From NCBI RefSeq assembly GCF_900090285.1, contig NZ_LT607754.1, forward strand, positions 1,612,001 to 1,676,000: DNA of 64,000 nt, in the 5' to 3' direction. The notes below the pieces were generated by a model. The model did not search any database, had not been told where the DNA came from, and saw nothing but the letters and a program-made list of their open reading frames with translations. Positions within the stretch are counted from its first letter, which is position 1; each line of letters begins with the position of its first letter. This DNA comes from Micromonospora inositola. Lineage in GTDB: Bacteria > Actinomycetota > Actinomycetes > Mycobacteriales > Micromonosporaceae. Below, in pieces: positions 14,988 through 55,153 of the stretch. The position numbers were made by a program, and so were the translations under genes.

Positions 14988-17066
14988 GTGTCAGCGGAGG
15001 CGGAACCGGGCATGGCGGACGGCTCGGACGAGCACGTGCGGCGGGTGCGGCTCCCCGCCGACCGGCGTACGCCCGCCGCCGCCCGGGCCCTCGTCCGGTC
15101 CGTCCTCGCCGAGGCGGACCTGGAGGAGCTGCTCAACGAGGCGCTGCTGCTCACCACCGAACTTTCCACCAACGCGGTCGAACACGCCCGGACCGAACTG
15201 GACATCGAGGTCGCGGCGGACGGAGTCGGGCTCACCGTGACGGTCTCCGACTTCGCCGTCGGCCCGGTGGACGAGCTGGTGGTCGGCGTGCGCAACGACT
15301 CCGACGAGATCACCGAGGTCGCCGAGCGGGGGCGCGGGCTGCTGCTGGTGGACCACTTCGCCAGCCGCTGGGGCACCACCTACCTGCCCACCGGGAAGGG
15401 TGTCTGGTTCCGGCTGGACCGGCCCGACGCCGCACCGCCGGCGCGGCGCACGGCGGTCGCGGAGGCGCACACCCCGCTCACCGGCGCCGACAGCGACGAC
15501 GCGGCGCACGGCGCGCCGAGCGCGGCCGCGATGAGCGAGCTGATGCAGACCAGCCCCGACCCGTACGCGGAGGACCCGCTGCCGGAGTTCGCGACCGACC
15601 TGGTGACCCGGCTGGCGGAGATGGTCGGCGCGGCCGGTGGCGTGGTCCGGCTGGACCGGGGCGACGGGCAGGGCACCCAGGTCCTGGCCCGGTACGGCCG
15701 GCAGCCCCGGGACGACAACGAGCTGATCCGGGTGCCGCTGGCCGTGCACCGCCCGTACGCCGGTGAGCTGGAGCTGGACGCGGCACCGTCGGCGTACGCG
15801 CGGCCGCTCGCGGTGCTGGCGGCCGAGCGGCTCTCGCTGCATTTGGAGAACGACCGGCTGCGCCGGGCGGACGTCCGCCGGTCGGCCTGGCTGACCTTCC
15901 TGGCCGAGGCGAGCGAGCTGCTCGCCCAGTCCCTGGACGTCGAGCTGACCATGGCACTCATCCCGCAGCTGGTGGTGCCCCGGCTCGGCCAGTGGTGCGC
16001 GGTGCACACCACCGACGAGTGGGGCCGGCTGCGGCTCGCCGCCTCCAGCCACGCCGACGAGTCGGTGCTGCCGCAGCTGCACAAGGTGCTCCAGGAGACC
16101 GGGCCGGAATCGATCCAGGCCCGGCTGCGCGAGGCGTCGCGCAGCGCGTCGCAGGTGCCGCTCGGCGCCCCGATGGAGGGCTTCGCCGTCCCGCTGATCG
16201 CCCGCGGCCAGCGACTCGGCACGCTGGCCGTCGGCCGGCACCAGCGGCACCGGCACGACCCGGACGAGGTCTCGGTGCTGGAGGACGTGGCCCGCCGGGC
16301 CGCCCTGGCGATCGAGAACGCCCGGATCCACGCCGAACGGCGCCGGGTCGCGCAGACTCTCCAGCAGTCGCTGCTGCCGCCGGTGCTCCCGGTGGTGGAG
16401 GGCATCGGCTTCGCCGCCGAGTACGTCCCGACCGGCGACGAAGCCGATGTCGGGGGCGACTTCTACGACGTGCTGCCGCTGCCGGACGGCCGGTGGCTGG
16501 TGGTCATCGGCGACGTGTCCGGCAAGGGCGTCCAGGCGGCGGCGGTGACCGGCCTGGTCCGGGACGTGATCCGGGTGCTGGTCGGCGACGGCAAGCCGAT
16601 GCCGGAGGTGCTGGGCCGGCTGAACGAGACGCTGGTCGAGCGGGGCGGCGGCCGGTACTGCACGCTGGCCATGGCGGCCGTCGGACCGGCCGAGGGCGGT
16701 CAGCTCGACGTGGCCCTGCACCTGGCCGGCCACGACCGGCCGGTGCTGCTGCACGGCGGTGGTGGCGCCGCCTTCGTCGGCACCGGCGGCACCGCGCTCG
16801 GGCTGCTCGACTCGATCGCCACGCCCACCGCCGAGATCCCGCTCGGCCCGGGCGACGCGCTGATCTTCTACACCGACGGGGTGACCGAGCGGCGGCGCGG
16901 CCGGGAACTCTTCGGCACCGAGCGGCTGCGCGACGCCGCCGCCCCGCTGGCCGGTTACTCGGCGGACGTGGTCGCCGCCCGGCTGCGCGCCACCGCGCTC
17001 GGCTTCTCGGTGGAGGCCCCCCGCGACGACATCGCGATCCTGGTCCTCCGCAACGACGCCCTCTGA
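14988..17066 (+). CDS. HATPase-GAF-PP2C (SpoIIE-type) partner-switching phosphatase
   Basis: This 692-residue protein begins with an RsbW/SpoIIAB-type HATPase (about residues 10-145, N-box ELSTNAVEHA). It continues with a sensory GAF-like region (about 180-440) and ends with a SpoIIE-type PP2C phosphatase (about 460-690) containing VGGDFYDV, IGDVSGKG, FYTDGVTERR and RDDIAIL. It could both phosphorylate and dephosphorylate STAS antagonists. The GTG at 14988 is supported by GGAGG eight bases upstream. It is divergent from the poly-HAMP kinase over a 249-base gap. Confidence 0.92.
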   Translation: MSAEAEPGMADGSDEHVRRVRLPADRRTPAAARALVRSVLAEADLEELLNEALLLTTELSTNAVEHARTELDIEVAADGVGLTVTVSDFAVGPVDELVVGVRNDSDEITEVAERGRGLLLVDHFASRWGTTYLPTGKGVWFRLDRPDAAPPARRTAVAEAHTPLTGADSDDAAHGAPSAAAMSELMQTSPDPYAEDPLPEFATDLVTRLAEMVGAAGGVVRLDRGDGQGTQVLARYGRQPRDDNELIRVPLAVHRPYAGELELDAAPSAYARPLAVLAAERLSLHLENDRLRRADVRRSAWLTFLAEASELLAQSLDVELTMALIPQLVVPRLGQWCAVHTTDEWGRLRLAASSHADESVLPQLHKVLQETGPESIQARLREASRSASQVPLGAPMEGFAVPLIARGQRLGTLAVGRHQRHRHDPDEVSVLEDVARRAALAIENARIHAERRRVAQTLQQSLLPPVLPVVEGIGFAAEYVPTGDEADVGGDFYDVLPLPDGRWLVVIGDVSGKGVQAAAVTGLVRDVIRVLVGDGKPMPEVLGRLNETLVERGGGRYCTLAMAAVGPAEGGQLDVALHLAGHDRPVLLHGGGGAAFVGTGGTALGLLDSIATPTAEIPLGPGDALIFYTDGVTERRRGRELFGTERLRDAAAPLAGYSADVVAARLRATALGFSVEAPRDDIAILVLRNDAL

Positions 17067-41666: not shown

Positions 41667-42386
41667 ATGACGCTCATCCTCCGCTCGGCCATCCTCAACG
41701 ACGTCGGCCTCGTCCGGACCAACAACGAGGACTCCGCCCTCGCCGGTGACCGCCTGGTGGCGGTGGCCGACGGCATGGGCGGGCTCCCCGCCGGCGAAGT
41801 GGCGAGCGAGATCGTCATCCGGATCCTGGACGAGCTGACCCCGCCGAACGTCCCCGACGAGGCCGCCGACGCGCTGCGGGCCGTGGTGAGCACCGCCAAC
41901 CAGCGGATCCGGGCCGCCATCACGGTGGACCCGACCCGCGACGGCATGGGCACCACGCTGACCGCCGCCCTGCTCGCCGGGGACACCCTGGTCATCGCCC
42001 AGGTCGGCGACTCCCGCGGCTATCTGCTGCGGGACGGGGAGCTGACCCAGCTCACCCGGGACGACACCTTCGTCCAAGCGCTGGTCGACCAGGGCGCCCT
42101 CTCCCCCGACCAGGCCCGGCACCACCCGCAGCGGTCCCTGGTCACCCGGGCCGTGCAGGGCTCGGACGCGCCCCCGGCGATCGGGGTGCTCACCGTCTTC
42201 CCCGGCGACCGACTGCTGCTGTGCAGCGACGGCCTCTCCGACTACGTCGAGGACCCGCCGATCGCCGCGGCGCTCGGCACCTACGGCGACCGCCAGCAGT
42301 GCGGCGAGCAGCTGGTCAAGCTCGCCCACCAGGCCGGCGCGCCGGACAACGTCACCGTGGTCGTCTCCGACGTCGCCGCGGCCTGA
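41667..42386 (+). CDS. PPM-type protein serine/threonine phosphatase
   Basis: This 239-residue PP2C phosphatase has all metal-binding motifs: RTNNED (17-22), VADGMGG (33-39), DGMGTT (92-97), VGDSRG (113-118), SDGLSD (187-192) and DNVTVVV (227-233). It resembles the stand-alone PstP class that opposes eukaryote-like kinases, though no kinase gene is adjacent. It has no membrane anchor, unlike PstP. No ribosome-binding site is clear. Confidence 0.92.
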   Translation: MTLILRSAILNDVGLVRTNNEDSALAGDRLVAVADGMGGLPAGEVASEIVIRILDELTPPNVPDEAADALRAVVSTANQRIRAAITVDPTRDGMGTTLTAALLAGDTLVIAQVGDSRGYLLRDGELTQLTRDDTFVQALVDQGALSPDQARHHPQRSLVTRAVQGSDAPPAIGVLTVFPGDRLLLCSDGLSDYVEDPPIAAALGTYGDRQQCGEQLVKLAHQAGAPDNVTVVVSDVAAA

Positions 42387-42447
42387 TCGTGCCCCCGGGG
42401 CCGGCGAAAGCGGTTGCGCCGGCCACCGGCCCGGGTTGGGATGAGGA

Positions 42448-43644
42448 ATGATCATCCGTCGGTTGGCCGCCGAGGAACGCCTGACCACCAGCTTCCCGCT
42501 CCAGGCGTACGCCTTCGAGGCGTCGCCGCTGGCCGCGTCCCGGGTGGAGGAGTTCCGCGACTACCTCTCCTACAACGCCGGCAACCGGACGCTGATCGCC
42601 GACGAGGACGGCACGGCGGTCGCCGCCGTCTCGGCGATCCCGATGCGGCAGAACCTCCGCGGCGCCGTCCTGCCGATGGCCGGCGTCGCCGGGGTGGCGA
42701 CCCACCCGCTGGCCCGCCGGCGCGGCCACGTCCGGGCGCTGCTGCACCAACTCCTCGACGAGATGCGCGACGAGGGGCATCCGCTCACCGCGCTGTACCC
42801 GTTCCGGGCGTCGTTCTACGAGCGCTTCGGCTACGTCGGGCTGCCCCGGGCGCGTAGCGCGACGTTCTCCCCGGCCGACCTCGGGCCGTTGCTCCGCGCC
42901 GAGCTGCCCGGAGAGGTGGTCTGGGAACGGGTCGGGGTGGGCTACCCGACCTGGCGCGCGTTCACCGAACGCTGCCTGCACGAGCGGCACGGTTTCGCGG
43001 TCTTCCCCGACTTCTGGGCCGTCGGGCTGCGCGACCGGGACGACCGCTGGCTGGTCACCGCCGTGGTCGACGGCAGCACGGCCGGCGCGGTGACCTACCG
43101 GATCGACGACCACGGCGGAGAGCTGATCGCCGACGAACTGCTCGCCACCGACCCGTACGCGCGGGCGCTGCTGTTGCAGTTCTTCGCCCGGCACGTCGAC
43201 CAGGTCGAGCGGATCCGGGTCCAGCTCCCCGCCGACGAACTGCCCGAGCTGTGGCTCACCGACCTGGCCGTGCACGTCGAGGCGCGGGTGTCCCGGCCCG
43301 GGTCGCCGGCGCCGATGGCCCGGCTGCTCTCCCTGGACGCGCTGACCGGCCTGCCGGCCGGAGCCGGTCGGGTCCGGGTCGACCTGGTCGGCGACCGCTG
43401 GCTGGCCGGGACGCACCTGCTCGACGGCGCCACCGGTCGGCTGGAGCTGCTGCCCGGCGGGTCCGCCGGGGGCGGGGTCCCGACCGCGGCGCTCACCGCC
43501 GCCGGCCTCTCCGCCCTCGCGTACGGGGTGCTCGACCCGGCCGAGGTCGACATCCGGGACCTGGGCGACGTGCCGGCGGACGCGGCGGCCGAGCTGCGCC
43601 GCATCTTCCCCCGGGAAGTGCCGTACCTCTTCGCCGACTTCTGA
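42448..43644 (+). CDS. Eis-like GNAT N-acetyltransferase
   Basis: This 398-residue protein has the Eis three-part layout: an N-terminal GNAT domain with the acetyl-CoA segment GVATHPLARRRGHVRALL, a second GNAT-like domain, and a C-terminal sterol-carrier-like domain. The final F-A-D-F residues match Eis proteins, which use the C-terminal carboxylate in catalysis. Eis acetylates aminoglycosides and other amines. GAGGA lies directly before the ATG. Confidence 0.86.
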   Translation: MIIRRLAAEERLTTSFPLQAYAFEASPLAASRVEEFRDYLSYNAGNRTLIADEDGTAVAAVSAIPMRQNLRGAVLPMAGVAGVATHPLARRRGHVRALLHQLLDEMRDEGHPLTALYPFRASFYERFGYVGLPRARSATFSPADLGPLLRAELPGEVVWERVGVGYPTWRAFTERCLHERHGFAVFPDFWAVGLRDRDDRWLVTAVVDGSTAGAVTYRIDDHGGELIADELLATDPYARALLLQFFARHVDQVERIRVQLPADELPELWLTDLAVHVEARVSRPGSPAPMARLLSLDALTGLPAGAGRVRVDLVGDRWLAGTHLLDGATGRLELLPGGSAGGGVPTAALTAAGLSALAYGVLDPAEVDIRDLGDVPADAAAELRRIFPREVPYLFADF

Positions 43645-43671
43645 CGGTTCCCCCGCCGCTCCGCGTCGGGG

Positions 43672-43677
43672 TACGGT
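43672..43677 (+). promoter_or_regulatory. Candidate -10 element of the ZIP transporter promoter
   Basis: TACGGT ends seven bases before the ATG at 43685, with no ribosome-binding site between. Confidence 0.5.
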
Positions 43678-43684
43678 CCTGCGA

Positions 43685-44434
43685 ATGCCGGAGTGGTTGC
43701 AAGCGGGATTCTGGGGTCTGCTGGCCGGTTCGGCCCTGCTGCTCGGGGCGGCCGTCGGGTTCTTCGCCCGGGTCCCCCGGAAGATCATCGCGTCGATCAT
43801 GGCGTTCGGTGCCGGGGTGCTGCTCAGCGCGGTCTCCTTCGAGCTCATCGCCGAGGCGCACGAGCAGGGCGGCCTGCTGCCCACCACGGTCGGCGCGGCG
43901 GCCGGGGCACTCGCGTACACCGGGGCGAACATCCTGCTGGCCCGGCGCGGGGCCCGGCACCGCAAGCGCTCCGGCGACGAGCAGCCCTCCGAACAGGAGC
44001 AACCAGGCTCGGGTACGGCGATCGCGGTCGGCGCGCTGCTGGACGGCGTACCGGAGTCGGTGGTGATCGGCGCCAGCCTGCTCACCGGCGGCCCGGTCAG
44101 CCTGGTCACCGTGATCGCGGTGTTCCTGAGCAACGTGCCGGAGGGGCTGTCCAGCGCCGCCGGCATGCGCCAGGCCGGCCGCTCCAAGCGCTATGTCTTC
44201 CTGCTCTGGACGGCGATCGCCCTGATCAGCGGCGCGGCGGCGCTGGCCGGCTACGCGCTGCTCGGCGGCGCTCCGCCGGAGGTGCTGGCCACCATCACCG
44301 CGCTGGCCGCCGGCGCGATCCTCGCGATGATCACCGACACGATGGTCCCCGAGGCGTTCGAGGACGCCCACCTCCTGGTCGGCCTGATCACCGTCCTCGG
44401 ATTCCTGGTCTCCTTCGCCCTCTCCCACGCCTGA
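43685..44434 (+). CDS. ZIP family metal transporter
   Basis: This is a 249-residue membrane protein with about eight helices. The ZIP metal-binding helix motifs are visible as GALLDGVPESVVIG and FLSNVPEGLSSA. A charged, Glu/Gln-rich cytoplasmic loop lies between helices three and four (about residues 88-115). It probably imports a divalent cation such as zinc, or exports it as proposed for some family members. Confidence 0.88.
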   Translation: MPEWLQAGFWGLLAGSALLLGAAVGFFARVPRKIIASIMAFGAGVLLSAVSFELIAEAHEQGGLLPTTVGAAAGALAYTGANILLARRGARHRKRSGDEQPSEQEQPGSGTAIAVGALLDGVPESVVIGASLLTGGPVSLVTVIAVFLSNVPEGLSSAAGMRQAGRSKRYVFLLWTAIALISGAAALAGYALLGGAPPEVLATITALAAGAILAMITDTMVPEAFEDAHLLVGLITVLGFLVSFALSHA

Positions 44435-47609: not shown

Positions 47610-47681
47610 GGGCCGCTAGCTCAATGGCAGAGCTGTGGACTTTTAATCCATAGGTTCAGGGTTCGAGTCCCTGGCGGCCCA
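47610..47681 (+). tRNA. tRNA-Lys (TTT)
   Basis: A 72-base cloverleaf is visible: the acceptor stem GGGCCGC pairs with GCGGCCC, the anticodon loop reads CTTTTAA (anticodon TTT) and the T arm is CAGGG-TTCGAGT-CCCTG. The discriminator is A and CCA is not encoded. Its 3' end is duplicated at 52770-52799, which marks it as an integration site. Confidence 0.93.
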
Positions 47682-47682
47682 C
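47653..47682. other. Left attachment-site copy (tRNA-Lys 3' end)
   Basis: These 30 bases, covering the T arm and 3' acceptor strand, recur at 52770-52799 with one mismatch (G at 47674, A at 52791). This is the expected attL/attR arrangement of a tyrosine-recombinase element integrated into a tRNA gene. Confidence 0.8.
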
Positions 47683-47694
47683 TCCTTCGCAGGT

Positions 47695-47718
47695 CAGCGG
47701 CCCTGACCGGGGCCGCTG
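47695..47718 (+). terminator. Hairpin terminator after tRNA-Lys
   Basis: CAGCGGCCC pairs with GGGCCGCTG (9 bp) around the loop TGACCG. It begins 14 bases after the tRNA. Confidence 0.75.
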
Positions 47719-47736
47719 TTGCCGTGGTCGGGGCCG

Positions 47737-47758
47737 GTACAGCAGCGAAGTACAGCAG
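47737..47758. repeat. Two direct GTACAGCAG repeats beside the integrase remnant
   Basis: GTACAGCAG occurs at 47737-47745 and 47750-47758, a 13-base spacing, between the tRNA and the integrase remnant. Their place fits integrase arm-binding sites of an attachment region, which is inferred only from position. Confidence 0.5.
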
Positions 47759-47766
47759 TAGGCCGG

Positions 47767-47847
47767 TCACCCGTCGAGCGCCTGACCGAGCCGCTTGAGC
47801 GCGTCGCGGATGGCCGCCGAGGACACCATCGTGTAGATCTCCATGGT
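47767..47847 (-). pseudogene. C-terminal remnant of a tyrosine-recombinase integrase
   Basis: The minus strand encodes 26 residues including TMEIYTMVSSAAIRDAL and LKRLGQALDG before a TGA. This matches the far C-terminus of actinobacterial phage-type integrases, including the catalytic tyrosine region (VTMEIYT). The codon before the threonine is a TAG, and no upstream integrase sequence is recognisable. The enzyme is therefore lost. It lies in the normal int position next to the tRNA attachment site. Confidence 0.75.
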
Positions 47848-48119
47848 CTAAGTTCCGCTTGAACGTCTGGGTCCGGCCCTCCTGTTCACTCGCACTCCAG
47901 GCACACCGGGGCGACCCACACCTCACCGACGACGGGTGGTTGTTCCCTGGCGGGCTGGGCAGCGGCCGACTATCGGGGAGGGCAGGTCGGCGGCGTAGGG
48001 GTTGAAGGATCGTCTCAACCAGAGGGTCTTGCACCGCTGACACGTCCGGATATGCTGCGCGTCGCGTCACAGGCCCATGTGGCTTGTCTCCCTCTTTCGT
48101 CCCTGAGGTGATTTTCGCC

Positions 48120-48890
48120 ATGAACGCCCGCCAGCTGATGGCCTCCGTTGTCGCTCTCGGTGCCATGCTCACCTTCGGTGCCGCTGCTTGCGGTACGGAA
48201 AGTAGCCACGCTGACACGCCGAAGGTCGGTCAGCAGGCCGATGCCCGGCCGGAACTGGCTGCCGCCGCCCGGGGGATCACCGAGCAAAGCTTCAGGCTCA
48301 CTCTTGAGAAGGCGGGCATCTCCGGTAAGGGGGTGGCCGATCCGCGGACCCGGACCGGCACCATGATTGTCGACTTTCCGAAGACCGGCCGGCAGCTCTT
48401 TGTGACGGTGTTTGAGGACGACGTCTACTTCAGTGAGCTGGGTGTGCCTGGTGTCAGCTTCAAGACGAGCTTCCGGTTGCCTAGGTCGAAGGTGCCGGCC
48501 GGGAGTTACCTGGACGTCATGCCAAACGATGACCCGAGTGGTTCCCATCGGCTGGTCGACGCCGTAGTGAGTGTGCGGCGGGACGGCGGGGGCCCAGCCA
48601 ACGGGCGGCATCTGTTCACCGGCACGATTGACCTGATGGCGACTTCGTACGCGGATGAGAACCTGCGCCACGAGTTCGGCGACAAGCTCAAGGCAGTCCC
48701 GTTCACCGCAGCCGTCGACGATGGGGGCCGACTGGTCGAGTTCGTCATCGCGCTGGACACCCTCGCGCCGAAGCTGGGCAAGGTCCGCGCGGCTTGGAGC
48801 GACTTCGGGTTGCAGACGAACCCGAAGAGGCAAGAGCCCAGCCAGCCGACCGGAGATGTGCACGGTCTGCTGCAGGCGCTGGAAAGCTGA
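48120..48890 (+). CDS. Putative lipoprotein (unknown function)
   Basis: This 256-residue protein has a signal peptide ending in a lipobox-like AAAC24, so it is probably lipid-anchored outside the membrane. The mature part shows alternating strands and could be a LppX/LprG-like fold, but no motif is decisive. GAGGTG lies nine bases before the ATG. By eye its base composition and third-position use are less G+C-rich than the flanking chromosome. It is the first cargo gene of the tRNA-Lys element. Confidence 0.75.
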   Translation: MNARQLMASVVALGAMLTFGAAACGTESSHADTPKVGQQADARPELAAAARGITEQSFRLTLEKAGISGKGVADPRTRTGTMIVDFPKTGRQLFVTVFEDDVYFSELGVPGVSFKTSFRLPRSKVPAGSYLDVMPNDDPSGSHRLVDAVVSVRRDGGGPANGRHLFTGTIDLMATSYADENLRHEFGDKLKAVPFTAAVDDGGRLVEFVIALDTLAPKLGKVRAAWSDFGLQTNPKRQEPSQPTGDVHGLLQALES

Positions 48891-49086
48891 TCAATCCCCG
48901 ACGTCAGGGTCTCTTGTGGCTCTCGATCCATCTCCGATAGCCCGTTGCTTTGTCTGACGGAACGGCAGCCGACGGACCGACCCGGTTCAGGTGAATCGCC
49001 GGACCCGGAGCGCGAGGATGCTTCCGGGCGGGTCGCTCCGGCCTGGTTGAGGATCGCCCAGATCGTGGCCAACAGCCCAGGAAAGG

Positions 49087-49108
49087 AGCCCCTCCAACAG
49101 GAGGGGCT
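49087..49108. terminator. Hairpin terminator between convergent genes
   Basis: AGCCCCTCC pairs perfectly with GGAGGGGCT (9 bp) around the loop AACA. It lies between the lipoprotein gene and the convergent GH16 gene; the remaining non-coding bases from 48891 to 49176 show nothing else. Confidence 0.8.
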
Positions 49109-49176
49109 ACCCGGCCGTCACAGTGGCCCCCGGCACTCTCCGGCGTGCTCGGTGATGGCGTAGGGCTGATCGTCCC

Positions 49177-50604
49177 CTACTGACGGGTTGTCGTGTTGAT
49201 GTAGTTGATTCCGTTGCTGTAGAAGCCGTCGACGGCGCTTTGCACCTCCGCCACGCTTACTGCCTTGCCGTCTACCGAGTAGATCCAGTTGACCTGCATG
49301 TTCCAGGTTCGCTCGCCGGCGAAGGGCAGGTCGATCAGCCACGTGTTGAGGTGGATCCGCATGGGTTCGCGGGGGAAGGTCTTGCCGCTGCTGTGGAAGA
49401 CCGGTCGGCCGTCGATGGAGTACGTGACCTTGCCGTGGACTGCAGTGATCATCAGGGTGTGCCACCCGGCGAGAGTGCGATGCAGAGCGCGTGTGGTGCG
49501 GTCGCCGGGTGTGGCGCTACGCCAGCTGGTGGTGTCGAGTTTGGGACCGGGGGCGCCCCAGCCGCCGTTGGGCTGGTACTCGAAGTCGAGTTCGGTGTAG
49601 CGCTCAGAGGTCGACTTCGGCGAGATCATGCAGAAGGATTCGATGATGTGGTCGCCGTTGCGACCGTCGGCGGGTTTGTCGGTGAAGTGGATTCGTGCGG
49701 CGATGGTGCCGGTGAAGAAGGTGTTGTCTATGCCGATGAGCTCGGCTTGCCGGGTGCCTTGCCGGGTGCCGTCGGTGGTGACCTGCAACTGAAGTACCTG
49801 CCCGCCTTGCGCCTTTCGGTTGGCAGGGAAGTTGATGGCGTCGGCTGACCAGGTGCCGGCAATCCCGGGCCCGCCGCCGTCGGTGCGGACCTGCCACCCG
49901 TTGGCGGTTACCGCCGGATCGGCGGCGTCGGTGTAGTGGAAGTTGTCGAAGAGAGTTCCGGCCGGCGCGGTCAGGGCCGACGCGTTCGAGGGTCGGGGGG
50001 AAGCTGCCGGTGGAGCGGCACCGGGTTCCTGCCCCCAGAAGAGAACACCGTCGACATAGCCGGTCACGCGTGTCGAGGGCGCGTAGTGGGTGAGCGTCGG
50101 ATCGAACGAGCGATCGTCGGCCTGATCCAGGTCCTCGCGGTCGAGGCGGTACAGCTGCAGCCCGATGCCCTCGCTGGTCTGGCCAGGTGCCAGCGTGCGG
50201 GCAGCGGAGGTGAAGCCGACCTGCAGGTAGTGAGTGGCGGTGGGGGCTGGATTCGACATCGCCCTGACGACCTGGGTGACGTTCGAGCATTGGAGGGTCG
50301 TCTGCAGGCAGTTGGCCGCGTAACCGGCACTGTCGTCGTCGCTGAAGTAGTACCGGAGCGTCACCTTGTGCAGCGCCACCGGCTGGCTGGATGTGTTGAT
50401 CACTTCCAGCCACGGCTTGCCGACCGGGGCAGTGGCGGGGGTCTCCGTCCGGTACCGGACGGTCAGCAGTGAATTCTCGTCAGCGGGCCGGTCGGCGTTC
50501 GTCCGCCACACGCCGTAAAGCGCAACCCCGGCACCGAGCACCACCACCATGGCCATGAGCAGGCTGGGCCAACGGTGAGGGGAACGGGAACGCGACCGGC
50601 CCAT
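49177..50604 (-). CDS. Membrane-anchored CBM3-GH16 protein
   Basis: This 475-residue protein has an N-terminal transmembrane anchor (about residues 13-33), a CBM3-like cellulose-binding module (about 48-190, with VINTSSQPVALHKVTLRYYF and GVLFWGQEPG), a short Pro/Ala/Ser linker and a GH16-like beta-jelly-roll domain (about 215-455). The GH16 catalytic motif is ELDFE (ExDxE form). It would bind and cleave or rearrange a beta-glucan at the cell surface. GGAG precedes the ATG by about five bases. It is divergent from a processive GT2 synthase. Confidence 0.85.
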   Translation of the reverse strand: MGRSRSRSPHRWPSLLMAMVVVLGAGVALYGVWRTNADRPADENSLLTVRYRTETPATAPVGKPWLEVINTSSQPVALHKVTLRYYFSDDDSAGYAANCLQTTLQCSNVTQVVRAMSNPAPTATHYLQVGFTSAARTLAPGQTSEGIGLQLYRLDREDLDQADDRSFDPTLTHYAPSTRVTGYVDGVLFWGQEPGAAPPAASPRPSNASALTAPAGTLFDNFHYTDAADPAVTANGWQVRTDGGGPGIAGTWSADAINFPANRKAQGGQVLQLQVTTDGTRQGTRQAELIGIDNTFFTGTIAARIHFTDKPADGRNGDHIIESFCMISPKSTSERYTELDFEYQPNGGWGAPGPKLDTTSWRSATPGDRTTRALHRTLAGWHTLMITAVHGKVTYSIDGRPVFHSSGKTFPREPMRIHLNTWLIDLPFAGERTWNMQVNWIYSVDGKAVSVAEVQSAVDGFYSNGINYINTTTRQ

Positions 50605-50885
50605 AGAAGCTCCTTGACGACTCGACGCCCGCGTAACAGGAAGCGCTGGCAGGGGGCGTCTAGACAAACGCGCGTCATCCTACCGACGCCGGGCTGCGTC
50701 GTGATCCCGCAGGACGGGAGACATGCCCGGCCGACCTCGTGGGCGGTCCCTCCGCTGCGGATCAGCCAAACGGGCAGCTGAACAGGCCCGAAAGGAGGCC
50801 CATCGAGTTGATCACGTCGGCTATGTTTCTCCTGCTCCAGACCGCGACAGCCCGGCCTGGACGATGATCATCGAGCGGGGAACTC

Positions 50886-52064
50886 GTGTCACACAACATC
50901 ATGGGCGAAGCGGGGCTAGAGAAGACCGCCATCCTGCAGGGTCTCCGCTGGAGACACCACGGCACTCCGAAGCCCAGCGGCCCGACGCTGCACGACATCG
51001 TCGCCATCATCCCGGCGCGCAACGAGGAAGTCGGGATCCTCACCTCCCTGAACTCCCTGGCCCGGCAGACGTGGCGCCCCGACCGGATCGTCGTGGTCGT
51101 CAACAACTCCACCGACCAGACGGAACACTTCGCCCGGCAGTTCGCCGCCGATCCTCGCACACCGCGCACCGACGTCCTGCTGATGCGCGAGAACGAGCAC
51201 AAGAAGGCCGGTGCCCTCAACTACGGCATCGCCTGGTTGAGCCAGCGGGTCGGCGGGCGGCTGGACCCGGTCCAGCACGTCCTGGTGATGGACGCCGACA
51301 CGGAACTGCACCACAAGTTCATCGAACGGGCCCGCAAGGTGATCACCTCGGACCCCGAGATCGGCGGCGTCAGCGCCGTCTGTCTGGGCCGCACCGGGCT
51401 GTGGCGCAACCCCTGGCAGAGATTCCTGCTGGGCATGCAGATCATCGAGTACGGCCGCGCCGCCAACGCCCGTTTCCAGACCGACGTGCACACCATGTCG
51501 GGCGCCGGATCCTTCTACCGGGGTGTGGCCCTGCAGTCGGTCATCGACAAGCGCGGCGCGGTGTTCTGGGAGGACCACCGCAACCTCGTCGAGGACTACG
51601 AAACGACGCTGACGCTCAAGGAATGCGGCTGGAAGGTGACCGCGAACCAGCTGTGCATCGCGTACACCGATCTCATGCCCACGCTGCGTGAGCTGCTGCA
51701 ACAACGTCAGCGCTGGGTGCGTGGCACCGTGGACGCCCTGCGCGCCCGTGGCTGGACCAAGTTCACCTGGCACTCGATCGCGTCGATGATCCTCGGGCTG
51801 CTCGGCGTCGTGTACCTCATCGGCTGGGGGGCCACCCAACTGGCCACCGCCGTCGCGAACGGCTTCGCGCAACAGCCCATCTTCTGGGTGCTGTTCGCGT
51901 TCTGGGTCATCTACCCCGCGGTGATGGTACGCAACCTCGGCTGGAAGGCGATGCTGGTCGAGGCCCTGCTCATTCCCGAACTGGTCTACACGGTCGTACG
52001 CATGTACTGGCTGCTGTCATCCCTCCTCAAGTCCTATTTCACGCCCGTGTCGGCATGGAAGTAA
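50886..52064 (+). CDS. Processive family-2 glycosyltransferase (cellulose/chitin synthase-like)
   Basis: This 392-residue GT2 has IIPARNEEVGI near residue 41, the DxD-type MDADTE, the acceptor-site ED in NLVEDYETTL and the processivity motif QRQRWVRG. C-terminal membrane helices follow (about 295-385), as in cellulose, hyaluronan and chitin synthases. There is no PilZ domain. GTG start with GGGGA upstream. The divergent CBM3-GH16 protein and the small membrane protein 13 bases downstream suggest a beta-glucan-like product. Confidence 0.88.
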   Translation: MSHNIMGEAGLEKTAILQGLRWRHHGTPKPSGPTLHDIVAIIPARNEEVGILTSLNSLARQTWRPDRIVVVVNNSTDQTEHFARQFAADPRTPRTDVLLMRENEHKKAGALNYGIAWLSQRVGGRLDPVQHVLVMDADTELHHKFIERARKVITSDPEIGGVSAVCLGRTGLWRNPWQRFLLGMQIIEYGRAANARFQTDVHTMSGAGSFYRGVALQSVIDKRGAVFWEDHRNLVEDYETTLTLKECGWKVTANQLCIAYTDLMPTLRELLQQRQRWVRGTVDALRARGWTKFTWHSIASMILGLLGVVYLIGWGATQLATAVANGFAQQPIFWVLFAFWVIYPAVMVRNLGWKAMLVEALLIPELVYTVVRMYWLLSSLLKSYFTPVSAWK

Positions 52065-52077
52065 GGCAGCATCACAG

Positions 52078-52263
52078 GTGAACTCCCTCAAAGGCTTCGG
52101 GATCTGCTTCCTCCTGGCGGCGACCCTGGTCGCCATGCGCAAACTCGCACAGGTCGAATACGCCCTCCTCGTCCTGACGGTCATCCTCATCTCCGGCTCC
52201 ACCGGCATCTACGTGGCGTCGCGTCAGCGACACCGCAAGGACCGTCGCATCGCCGGCGACTGA
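52078..52263 (+). CDS. Small two-helix membrane protein
   Basis: This 61-residue protein has two hydrophobic segments (about 5-20 and 28-46) and a basic C-terminal tail (RQRHRKDRR). It starts at a GTG 13 bases after the GT2 stop and is probably co-transcribed with it. It could be an accessory subunit of the synthase; no family is recognised. Confidence 0.6.
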   Translation: MNSLKGFGICFLLAATLVAMRKLAQVEYALLVLTVILISGSTGIYVASRQRHRKDRRIAGD

Positions 52264-52374
52264 GCGGTCTCTGAGTTGCAGCCAGGAAACATCGACGCGA
52301 ACTGATCACGAGCACAGCCTTGCACTGGTCAGGCTGGCGACACGCCTGCATCAAGCCCAAGCCCGACGATCCCA

Positions 52375-52488
52375 CTACAGGTCGCTGACATCGATGAGAT
52401 AGTCCCGGAGCAGAGCAGCCGCCTCGATTGAGCTGACGTTGGCTGGGGCGACGGTCCAGGTCTGTCTGCGCGGGACGGTGCTGGTCAC
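52375..52488 (-). pseudogene. Possible GNAT acetyltransferase N-terminal fragment
   Basis: A 37-codon frame ends with SSIEAAALLRDYLIDVSDL and a TAG. The pattern resembles the first helix of a common actinobacterial GNAT group (ALLRDYxxEVxxRY). No continuation is found downstream, so it would be a truncated gene. Confidence 0.35.
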
Positions 52489-52521
52489 GCGCCATTGTCG
52501 CGAGGACGGTGTTGGTCACGC
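52473..52521. repeat. 18-bp direct repeat near the right end of the element
   Basis: GGACGGTGYTGGTCACGC occurs at 52473-52490 and 52504-52521 with one mismatch, at a 31-base spacing. It overlaps the start of the GNAT-like fragment. The rest of 52264-52769 shows no gene I can support. Confidence 0.6.
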
Positions 52522-52769
52522 ATAGCACTTTTCGAGGTTCTCAGGCGTCGTGCCCGATCCGTGCCCATTGCAGCATGGCCGACAACCTTGTGGCTGGACC
52601 ACCACGGAATCAGGGCGGAACCGCCCGACGCGCTCGAGTAGGTGGCGCCGCCAAGGCCGCTGTCCCCCGCACGTCGAGCTGTCTGTAAACCTCGACGAGC
52701 CGGGGGTGGAAGGCGAACCACGCGTCGGCGAGGGCGAACCCTTCGTCGGCGGCGCCGCGGAGGCGGCGG

Positions 52770-52799
52770 GGTTCAGGGTTCGAGTCCCTGACGGCCCAC
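52770..52799. other. Right attachment-site copy (tRNA-Lys 3' fragment)
   Basis: This 30-base copy of the T arm and 3' acceptor strand of tRNA-Lys differs from 47653-47682 at one base. It has no 5' tRNA half, so it is not a functional tRNA. The following bases would complete a CCA end, which the intact tRNA gene does not encode. Confidence 0.78.
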
Positions 52800-52895
52800 C
52801 ACGAAGATATATCGGCCCTGAACTCGCTGGAATGCGCGGACTCTGCCACATCCGGCCACCTCGCAGGATATTCACACCTCGCACGGCGGCTGCTT

Positions 52896-53672
52896 CTAGT
52901 CGCGCAGCGCCGCCTCCACTGCAACGGCGAAGCCTTCGACGTTGTCGAGCATGATGTTGTGTCCGCAGTCGGGGATCGCCACCACCTCGACGCCTGCCGC
53001 CGCCAGCCGGTCGGTGTCGAAGCGCGGTCCGTCGGCTGCCGGATAGAGGAGCGCGCGCGGGATCGTCAGCTTGTCGAGCCGCTCCCGGACGGTGGGCACG
53101 GTGCCGCTCAGCATATTGATGGCACTGCGGTAGAGCGCCTGTGGCCCGGCCAGCCGCATGGTGGCCGCCCACTCCGGCCCGATGAACTCCAGCGTCTCGT
53201 CCCAGCCGTGATCGAGGAACTCCTTCTCGGTGCGGTAGACGCCGATGCCGGAACTGCCCGGGCGCTTGACCGTCGGCAGCGGGTGCACCGGGTCGAGGAC
53301 GGCGTCGACGAGCACCAGGCGGCGTACCAGCTGCGGGTGGCGCGCGGCCAGGGTGATCGCCACCGCACCGCCCATGCTGTGCGCGACGACGTCGGCCTCA
53401 CCCACCGCGGCTTGCTCCAGCGCGCGGGCCAAGACGTCCGCGTGCATCTCCAAGGTGTACGCGGCGTCTGCCGGCTGGTCGCTGATCCCGAAGCCCAGCA
53501 GGTCAATCATGAGCGAGCGGTGGCCGCCCAGGGCCGGGTGCGCGATTGCCTCGGCGTAGTAGGGCGCCGAGCTTGCGCCGAGGCCATGGACGTAGACGCG
53601 GGTGGGCTGGGCGCCGGGGATCTCCACCCAGCGTAGGCGGGAACCGTCGGGAAGCACCTGAGCGCTATGCAT
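52896..53672 (-). CDS. Alpha/beta hydrolase
   Basis: This 258-residue protein has the hydrolase oxyanion segment VHGLGASSAPYY, the nucleophile S99 in AHSMGG and the catalytic histidine H238 in DCGHNIM. The acid is probably in the segment near YPAADGP. No signal peptide is present. The ATG at 53672 has TATCGT seven bases upstream. It is divergent from a PadR regulator across a palindrome, so it is likely under PadR control. The substrate is unknown. Confidence 0.88.
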   Translation of the reverse strand: MHSAQVLPDGSRLRWVEIPGAQPTRVYVHGLGASSAPYYAEAIAHPALGGHRSLMIDLLGFGISDQPADAAYTLEMHADVLARALEQAAVGEADVVAHSMGGAVAITLAARHPQLVRRLVLVDAVLDPVHPLPTVKRPGSSGIGVYRTEKEFLDHGWDETLEFIGPEWAATMRLAGPQALYRSAINMLSGTVPTVRERLDKLTIPRALLYPAADGPRFDTDRLAAAGVEVVAIPDCGHNIMLDNVEGFAVAVEAALRD

Positions 53673-53679
53673 GACCCAG

Positions 53680-53685
53680 ACGATA
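53680..53685 (-). promoter_or_regulatory. Candidate -10 element of the hydrolase promoter
   Basis: TATCGT on the minus strand ends seven bases before the ATG at 53672 and overlaps the left arm of the palindrome at 53682-53703. Confidence 0.5.
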
Positions 53686-53703
53686 CCTCGGAGGCAAGGT
53701 ATC
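53682..53703. promoter_or_regulatory. Palindromic operator for the PadR regulator
   Basis: GATACCT and AGGTATC form perfect 7-base arms separated by eight bases. The left arm overlaps the hydrolase -10, and the right arm overlaps a TATCTT hexamer (53700-53705) that could be the PadR -10. One bound dimer could shut both promoters. Confidence 0.65.
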
Positions 53704-53716
53704 TTGGCAAGGGGGT

Positions 53717-54259
53717 ATGATCCAGGTCATGCTGGAACTGGCGATCCTCGGATTCCTCTACGACAAGCAGCTGCACGGCTACGACCTGCGCAAGCGCATC
53801 GCCGCCCTGACCGGGCACGTGCGCCCCATCGCCGACGGCACGCTCTACCCGCTGCTCAAGCGCATGGAAGCCGCCGGGCTGCTGACCCGCGAACTCCAGC
53901 CCGGCCAGATCGCCGCACCCCGGCACATGCTGTCGCTGACTGACGCAGGCAGGAAGGCGCTGCTCGACCGGCTGCGCGAACCCGACGAGCTGTTCATCAC
54001 CGACGAGAACCGGTGGTTCACCCTGCTGGCCTTCCTGCGCCACCTGGACGACCCGGCCGCACAGGCCGCCGTGCTGCGGCGCCGGCTGCATTTCCTCACC
54101 CAGCCGGCCAGCTTCTTCTGGGACGGCGACCGCCCGCTGCGCGCAGCCGACTTCGACGACCGCTTCCGGCAAGGGCTGTTCACCATCGCTACCTCAACGA
54201 CGCGTACCGAGCTGAAATGGCTGCGCGAAACGCTGGCGACCCTGGAAGTGGCTTCCTGA
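53717..54259 (+). CDS. PadR family transcriptional regulator
   Basis: This 180-residue protein has the PadR winged helix (MLELAILGFLYDKQLHGYDLRKRI, GTLYPLLKRMEAAGLL, RHMLSLTDAGRKAL) and a C-terminal helical domain. The ATG at 53717 is given; the ATG at 53729, which matches the usual PadR N-terminus, is an alternative. It is divergent from the alpha/beta hydrolase gene and probably represses it and itself. Confidence 0.87.
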   Translation: MIQVMLELAILGFLYDKQLHGYDLRKRIAALTGHVRPIADGTLYPLLKRMEAAGLLTRELQPGQIAAPRHMLSLTDAGRKALLDRLREPDELFITDENRWFTLLAFLRHLDDPAAQAAVLRRRLHFLTQPASFFWDGDRPLRAADFDDRFRQGLFTIATSTTRTELKWLRETLATLEVAS

Positions 54260-54454
54260 CGCTCCGTCGCGCATGCTCGCGCCCACGGACGCGGGATCAG
54301 CCGACGCCACGACCGGCCCGGCTGGGCGTGGACCGCGGGTCGTACGTCCAGCTCGGCTGGGTGCCAGCGGGGTGCGTGTCGTGTCCTTGATCCGGCTGCG
54401 CACCCCGTCCACCTGGTAGGACGGTGGTGCCACCGAGCGTCGAGGAGGTACCGC

Positions 54455-54943
54455 ATGACCAGCAAGCGCGAGACCGTGGAGGTGGATCCGGTCGTGTTCC
54501 GCGCCGTCTACGATTCGCCCGCCTCGCTGCCGGGAAGGCACCGCTGGACGACGCCGGAGCCGGACGTACGCCGGCTGGAGAAGCTGCTCGGGATGCCGGC
54601 GCGCACCATCGGCGCGCCCCTCTGGGTCAGCGGCGACGAGCCGGACTGCCCGAAGTGCGGCCGGCGGGTCAACTGGTACGACATCGTCGCGTCGGCGCTG
54701 CACGGCGTGCACGACCCGGCGATGATCGCCCGGGTGATCCTCGGCGAGCGCAAGTACGTCAACACCGAGGTGCCGGACGCGATCCCCGGGGTGTACTGCG
54801 CCGACTGTCGGACCCCCATCGAGGGGCTGCGCAGCTTCAAGTGCCACAACTGGGCGTACGCCTTCGAGGCGCTGGAGGCGGTGGTCGAGCGGATGTCCGG
54901 CGTGACCGCCCAGCCGGGTCAGCGCCGCGACATCGTCGACTGA
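54455..54943 (+). CDS. Zinc-ribbon-type hypothetical protein
   Basis: This 162-residue soluble protein has two CxxC pairs, CPKCGRR (about residue 66) and CADC (about 110), which could bind one zinc ion, and a lone cysteine in SFKCHNW. GAGGAGG lies seven bases before the ATG. I recognise no named family. Its stop codon abuts an IS481-type transposase fragment, so the original C-terminus may have been lost. Confidence 0.7.
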   Translation: MTSKRETVEVDPVVFRAVYDSPASLPGRHRWTTPEPDVRRLEKLLGMPARTIGAPLWVSGDEPDCPKCGRRVNWYDIVASALHGVHDPAMIARVILGERKYVNTEVPDAIPGVYCADCRTPIEGLRSFKCHNWAYAFEALEAVVERMSGVTAQPGQRRDIVD

Positions 54944-55153
54944 AGACCCGCCCCTACCGACCCCAGACCAACGGCAAGGTGGAACGCTTCCACCGCACCC
55001 TCACCGAGGAATGGGCCTACGCCAAGCCGTACTCCTCAGAAGCCGCCCGACGTGCGCCGTTGCCCGGCTGACCACACGCCCGCAACAATCGCCGAACCCA
55101 CACCGCACTCGGCGGCCGACCACCCGCCAGCCGCGTCCCACCTGCAGGTGTCC
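54943..55153 (+). pseudogene. IS481-type transposase (integrase core) C-terminal remnant
   Basis: The frame starting AAG at 54943 reads TRPYRPQTNGKVERFHRTL and EEWAYAKPYSSEAARR, the end of the DDE integrase core of IS481/IS3-like transposases, including the catalytic glutamate in KVERFHR. It is interrupted by a TGA (55069-55071) where a tryptophan is expected. The same frame continues with THTALGGRPPASR, the usual C-terminus. No inverted repeat or 5' part is present. Confidence 0.8.

Follow-up and report, generated by a model that had tools for sequence, protein, structure and literature searches.

Does the DNA that follows the tRNA-Lys gene in this stretch of Micromonospora chromosome represent one decayed integrative element, as a reading of the sequence alone had proposed? 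The window, i.e., the whole stretch of 64 kb that was analysed, corresponds to G000:C1:1612001-1676000 of the source genome G000, which consists of a single contig of 6.71 Mb. A tRNA-end direct repeat combined with an integrase stump usually indicates a single decayed island. However, comparison of arm sites and of the length of the identity segments, which is not part of island finding based on repeats, reveals ends that do not match each other. On balance, we consider it likely that positions 47683-54374 bear the marks of several integrations that took place one after another at a tRNA-Lys hotspot and do not represent one tidy decayed element. Thus, the use of the tRNA, the integrase stump and the foreign interior postulated by the sequence-only reading were upheld, whereas the notion of one element between two repeats was not.

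The tRNA-Lys gene (anticodon ttt) is the sole tRNA detected in the 64-kb window. ARAGORN and a repeat scan confirmed that it is intact and that a 30-base copy of its end with one mismatch is located 5.1 kb away: the direct repeat comprises positions 47653-47682 and 52770-52799 (30 nt, 97% identity, spacing 5117). When both strands of the 64 kb were scanned with this core, one site matched without mismatch and one with a single mismatch, and the next best site showed 11 mismatches. The pattern read backwards, which served as the control for the core scan, yielded 0 matches in every one of the 61 genus genomes.

As the sequence-only reading had noted, the core is followed by two 9-base direct repeats and a C-terminal integrase remnant. 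The 9-mer GTACAGCAG occurs at 47737-47745 and again at 47750-47758, separated by 4 bases, and, with up to 3 mismatches allowed, a 21-mer across both 9-mers is found once in the window (expected number 0.00). The arm 21-mer is found 55 nt past the tRNA core with 0 mismatches in the window and with 0-1 mismatches at 10 other tRNA loci; the two repeats hence constitute an intact arm-type site. Likewise, a related integrase searched against the whole G000 genome gave an independent match at 1659773-1659865 (window 47773-47865; 71% over 31 residues, E 1.6e-5, one internal stop). The integrase homology with related elements stops at 47847 on the DNA level or, with one stop, at 47865 on the protein level, so that solely a C-terminal stump is left and the presumed loss of the integrase holds. 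Judged by comparison with related copies at the same tRNA, the left end is a genuine stump of the left attachment site (attL) of a RepSA-type element.

That integrative elements use this tRNA-Lys is corroborated by related, integrase-bearing elements at the same tRNA in other Micromonospora. In G022, G055, G061, G063, G065, and G072 the tRNA-Lys is followed by the arm site and then by an integrase relative, which is in one piece in G022, G055, G063, and G065 and in two pieces in G061 and G072. A second tRNA-end copy is located 9.4-10.3 kb onward in five of these six genomes and 16.1 kb onward in G022. Profile searches identified one RepSA protein each in G063 (1.5e-145) and G022 (6.3e-131); in addition, the G063 element yielded Phage_integrase and GntR matches, and in G072 we found a 65-aa protein resembling HTH_17, just under the cut-off, and in the element interior a 537-aa LtrA-like protein. 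The 8 proteins of the related elements that were scanned, a part of those encoded by their open reading frames (ORFs), did not include a transfer protein. With a tyrosine integrase by the tRNA 3′ end and genes for an Xis-like protein and RepSA, these elements resemble actinomycete integrative and conjugative elements (AICEs). For pACPL and pSAM2, PMC3364876 describes a single arm-type site to either side of the att core, built from two short repeats in each case. The core of the related elements is flanked by such two-repeat sites as well; the arm sequence of the window is different from the GTCACCCAG-type arm given there for pACPL. Unlike an intact AICE, the window retains only attL and the int stump. 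Beside attL, the last 26 codons of the integrase gene are left, and among the 4 called interior ORFs neither a profile match to a replication gene (RepSA or other) nor an FtsK/SpoIIIE-type transfer gene was found.

G000 itself harbors two further integrase copies of the same family, at 15967-16998 (L279) and 6706310-6707298 (L280), one of them in two pieces. Each adjoins a tRNA-Val(CAC) near one of the two contig ends, and their arm motif is the same as at tRNA-Lys.

The two repeats had been taken as attL and attR of one element, which was not borne out. The ends were compared using distinct tRNA-end copies with up to 2 mismatches in loci chosen for matching, i.e., not a random sample. Among the 13 copies outside the tRNA gene that are preceded by AATCCATA, an 8-nt extension of the tRNA sequence, 10 show an arm with 0-4 mismatches at -108 to -113, and three (L082, L094, L110) show none. 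The right copy of the window is preceded by GGCGGCGG instead of AATCCATA, and the best arm score in its vicinity, 10 mismatches, corresponds to the background level. With neither extension nor arm, the right repeat was rejected as an attR belonging to the family of the stump; it can be recognised as a tRNA-Lys 3′ end, but not as the counterpart of the left end. The tRNA-Lys end copies include a second class (L079, L080, L089, L115, L116, L256-L262, L264), whose members mostly have GGAGG before them. This class has its own conserved upstream stretch, and its identity begins at GGTTC, the same base as in the right repeat of the window. This upstream stretch is not present in the window at the right repeat, and the DNA upstream of the latter (52653-52763) gave no match at E 1e-8 in the 151 genomes searched.

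These features would be better accounted for if two elements had accreted, or if a deletion had extended as far as the repeat, than if the two repeats were the ends of a single element. For the right repeat, the preferred explanation is that it is a remnant of another integration; a less simple one is that it represents the core of a right end that lost its arm by deletion. The latter is what the alternative of a single element requires, in which 47653-52799 carried the cargo, lost most of int and later its right arm. This is compatible with the repeat, the stump and the lowered G+C, and the tRNA-Arg islands of G121 and partly those of G117 and G071 (see below) show this anatomy with a 62%-identical module. 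Nonetheless, we regard a single element as rather improbable, given that the right repeat is devoid of both the extension and the arm and that the related elements differ in contents and span other distances between their copies (9.4-10.3 or 16.1 kb).

The locus is also reminiscent of the cis-mobilizable elements (CIMEs) and the tandem accretion covered by PMC5704250 in being a decayed element with integrase and transfer genes gone and with several tRNA-end copies at one target. For an integrase-less CIME, a related element could provide the integrase for excision in trans; in line with this, the core and arm of attL are identical and the int stump is intact, and other elements of the same family exist in the genus. 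However, of a matching attR only the 30-nt core is there. The right end, unlike in CIMEs as described there, is mismatched to the left, and excision in trans is therefore not expected. Moreover, the closest integrase relative in G000 (66% identical) is located at tRNA-Val and its site thus differs from tRNA-Lys. Hence, we consider an excisable CIME quite unlikely.

Beyond the repeat at 52770-52799, three further copies of the tRNA-Lys 3′ end are located in G000 distant from the tRNA, at 1273171-1273200 (L116), 6508741-6508770 (L115), and 5804124-5804153 (L213). The copy at 5804124 adjoins an integrase relative matching from residue 95 onward. Orphan end copies similar to these three are present in other genomes, and they have an upstream stretch in common.

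How variable is the site between the tRNA-Lys and the native flank? The tRNA-Lys is present in all 61 genus genomes and the 162-aa gene marking the right flank in 54 of them. At 53 flank places, tRNA and flank share a contig, lie no more than 60 kb apart and follow the same order in 37 genomes; in 8 they are on different contigs and in 8 they are arranged otherwise. In the 37 genomes the distance between them ranges from 2469 to 39286 bases (median 16502), and the interval holds one or more additional tRNA-end copies (up to 1 mismatch) in 11 of them. An empty tRNA-Lys site was sought and not encountered among these 37 genomes: the shortest interval still comprises 2469 bases, and the shortest ones (G048, G068, G059) carry other genes. 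The cargo glycosyltransferase (GT2) gene is absent from this place in all 36 other genomes with the same order of tRNA and flank, in agreement with a foreign interior. Nor does the foreign DNA end at 52799. DNA related to the hydrolase gene (68-86%) is located at other places in relatives, e.g., at 5.10 Mb in G059 and at 4.20 Mb in G022, and homology with the native flank starts only at about 54375; foreign DNA therefore runs on to about this position. Consequently, the hydrolase and PadR genes were rejected as native right flank, and, because the hydrolase DNA is found elsewhere in relatives, we take the stretch 52896-54259 to be a separate acquisition. These data also bear on the notion that the region is native to the chromosome and the repeat due to chance. 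The codon use of GT2 and PadR is near that of the host, but the 11 mismatches of the next best repeat match, the absence of GT2 from the place in the 36 genomes and the E value of the stump match (1.6e-5) render this explanation highly improbable.

The G+C content of 47683-52769 is 0.656, as compared to a mean of 0.739 outside, where 465 overlapping windows of 5.1 kb gave an sd of 0.017 and a minimum of 0.690. The less G+C-rich codon use that had been noted by eye is clear for the lipoprotein gene, weak for GH16 and absent for GT2. With reference to 43 genes from a rough ORF caller, G+C at third codon positions amounts to 0.80 for the lipoprotein gene, 0.84 for GH16, 0.885 for the 61-aa protein and 0.906 for GT2 (reference mean 0.926), and the codon-usage z values are -2.15, -1.49, -0.59, and -0.22, respectively. 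Low G+C, patchy distribution and an identity above that of native DNA (see below) argue for a foreign origin of the cargo.

Taken together, successive integrations could have proceeded as follows. As comparison with the copies at the same tRNA shows, a RepSA-type element, AICE-like by its int, Xis-like protein and RepSA, entered the tRNA 3′ end, and attL with its core, arm site and last 26 int codons is its trace. A deletion or replacement starting inside int may then have taken the remaining int and the element's own right end. The lipoprotein gene and the GT2/61-aa/CBM3-GH16 module, which now occupy the site, would have arrived in a third step by a route about which the lipoprotein gene tells little, because its two best relatives (G119, G166) have no tRNA within 14 kb. 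Finally, the right repeat would be a tRNA-end copy from another integration at the same tRNA. The cargo should thereby be fixed in place, because no integrase gene is left in the interval and the ends do not match; judged by this anatomy, the immobility proposed by the sequence-only reading is plausible.

Several observations weigh against this succession. Arms can be lost, since three of the 13 AATCCATA-preceded copies have none, and a true attR would look like the right repeat if a deletion had ended at its core. The element owning this repeat was not found in the 151 genomes searched or by comparison with the second-class copies. In 26 of the 37 genomes the interval is long and variable with no additional core copy present at up to 1 mismatch, and its variability thus needs no such copy. 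Furthermore, GT2 and PadR show host-like codon use, and for G165 the identity of the module is only slightly higher than that of native DNA.

Table 1. Features at the tRNA-Lys locus (window positions)
Feature	Position	Strand	Remarks
tRNA-Lys (TTT), integration target	47610-47682	+	ARAGORN
Left 30-nt core copy (tRNA 3′ end), attL core	47653-47682	+	repeat search
Arm-type site GTACAGCAG-CGAA-GTACAGCAG	47737-47758	+	55 nt past core
Tyrosine integrase, last 26 codons and stop	47767-47847	-	TMEIYTMVSSAAIRDALKRLGQALDG, then stop; related elements
Predicted lipoprotein, 256 aa	48120-48890	+	lipobox by eye; no Pfam/NCBIfam family; best relatives 51-52%
Stretch common to G014, G108, G165	49169-52275		88-93% DNA identity; flanks different in each
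CBM3 + GH16 protein, 475 aa	49177-50604	-	predicted secreted or membrane-anchored; ELDFE present
Membrane GT2 glycosyltransferase, 392 aa	50886-52064	+	DAD, ED, QRQRW motifs (processive type)
Membrane protein of module, 61 aa	52078-52263	+	
60-bp repeat found in many genus genomes	52320-52379		
Right tRNA 3′ end copy	52770-52799	+	1 mismatch; without AATCCATA and arm site
Further foreign stretch	52800-54374		hydrolase and PadR genes
Alpha/beta hydrolase	52896-53672	-	within 52800-54374
PadR-type regulator	53717-54259	+	within 52800-54374
162-aa gene marking native right flank	54455-54943	+	

What does the cargo encode? The GH16 protein matches PF00722 with 24.8 bits (cut-off 22) and the CBM3 profile PF00942 with 44.9 bits (cut-off 22.4); its ELDFE motif at residue 338 represents the catalytic motif ExDx(x)E. 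Processive GT2 enzymes are marked by the motifs DxD, ED, and Q(Q/R)xRW, and the GT2 protein of the window combines all of these with a profile match and membrane helices. Because these motifs are kept, both enzymes look able to act. The module probably makes and trims an extracellular beta-linked polysaccharide. By GT2 profiles, motifs and membrane segments the glycosyltransferase resembles PgaC/IcaA, NodC, and XrtP-associated enzymes; however, with a best NCBIfam score of 78.8 bits (cut-off 520) and 50.3 bits for PgaC (cut-off 422.3) it is not a member of these equivalogs, and it also differs from them in the adjoining GH16 gene, which is found beside GT2 in all nine named loci. A search for solved structures resembling GT2 gave no meaningful match (one antibody entry). 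Relatives of the lipoprotein, mostly distant, are present in 142 of the 151 genus genomes at E 1e-3.

The homology over 49169-52275 ends just beyond the outer stop codons of the module. Its DNA is 92.7% identical in G014, 89.8% in G108, and 87.7% in G165, and G079 contains a rearranged remnant. For native DNA (window 41667-44434) the corresponding values are 84-86% for G014, 81-88% for G108 and 85% for G165, and the nearest relative, G059 (95% native identity), is devoid of the module. A GT2 ortholog is present in 8 of the 151 genus genomes, the G079 remnant counted, and in 11 of 354 family genomes at E 1e-60. Among the 61 genomes it occurs only in G000, G014 (98%), and G071, the copies of the latter two being on contigs without the tRNA-Lys. 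In G014 (L099) GT2 is intact and the GH16 match is in two pieces; a weak rve_3-like transposase end is located about 350 bp past this module. Named GT2 relatives (72-75%) among the matches listed belong to Streptomyces, Kitasatospora, and Actinoplanes, and on plasmids or phages only relatives of 29-31% were found. In the nine named loci, which include one from Micromonospora, the small protein was found in seven. At five loci (L102-L104, L286, L287) the GH16 ORF reads as if this protein were its N-terminal part, a hint that the 61-aa protein and GH16 act together.

In parallel to the window, the modules of G117, G121, and G071, which represent three other species, are located just 3′ of a tRNA-Arg(ACG), with a GT2 about 62-66% identical to that of the window. 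A second copy of the tRNA-Arg end lies 4.6 kb away in G117 (0 mismatches in 40 nt) and 3.8 kb away in G121 (2 in 40), and the sequence before it is similar in both; none was present in the stretch read from G071. Next to the tRNA-Arg, G121 contains an integrase C-terminus (PF00589, 20 bits, under the cut-off of 27.1) and G071 by eye a similar one. None was seen next to the tRNA-Arg of G117, where an integrase relative in two pieces follows past the second tRNA-end copy. By eye, the stump at tRNA-Arg looks to be of another type than that at tRNA-Lys. The G117 module is 97.3% identical to that of G121 and 96.7% to that of G071, as compared to 90% for 5.4 kb of chromosome rightward, and the tRNA-Arg islands have a G+C content of 62.0-64.5% versus 72.9-73.6% in the two flanks measured. 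By these comparisons the cargo is foreign and the module resides in islands at at least two tRNA genes.

The G165 module comes to within 49 bases of a tRNA-Ser(TGA). A search for the end of this tRNA within 7 mismatches in about 15 kb matched only the neighbouring tRNA-Ser(GCT), and this tRNA-Ser is only suggestive as an island site. Conceivably, unrelated tRNA-targeting elements with different integrases (at tRNA-Lys, tRNA-Arg, and perhaps tRNA-Ser) repeatedly pick up the module, which is kept while the integrase decays; we put this forward tentatively. A general tRNA rule is countered by G165, with no second copy, and by the modules of G108, G014, and G079, near which no tRNA was found in the 40 kb, 11 kb, and 18 kb read, respectively. 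Outside Micromonospora, a tRNA is near the module in one of eight named loci (L125) and one of three family loci (L287), neither with a second end copy. If the proposal were true, a matrix or wall trait would have been spread by integrative elements and then fixed through loss of mobility.

The kind of locus as such is already known: PMC3364876, PMC3218068, and PMC5704250 together cover AICEs in tRNA-Lys, remnants of AICEs and AICEs in tandem, as well as arm-type repeats and CIMEs. Our literature search retrieved no report on the GT2/61-aa/CBM3-GH16 module and, on tRNA-Lys islands of Micromonospora, only PMC3218068. The locus points to a sporadic sugar-polymer module within tRNA islands of soil actinomycetes.

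Finally, traces of insertion sequences were observed around the locus. The region of 52320-52379 has matches in 34 of the 151 genus genomes, and its 60-bp stretch, which recurs in many of these 34, is perhaps the end of an insertion sequence. In addition, a plus-strand ORF at 54424-55071 overlaps the flank gene and has, by eye, a transposase-like C-terminal end (PYRPQTNGKVERFHRTLTEEW); an insertion-sequence remnant is probably located just past 54943.

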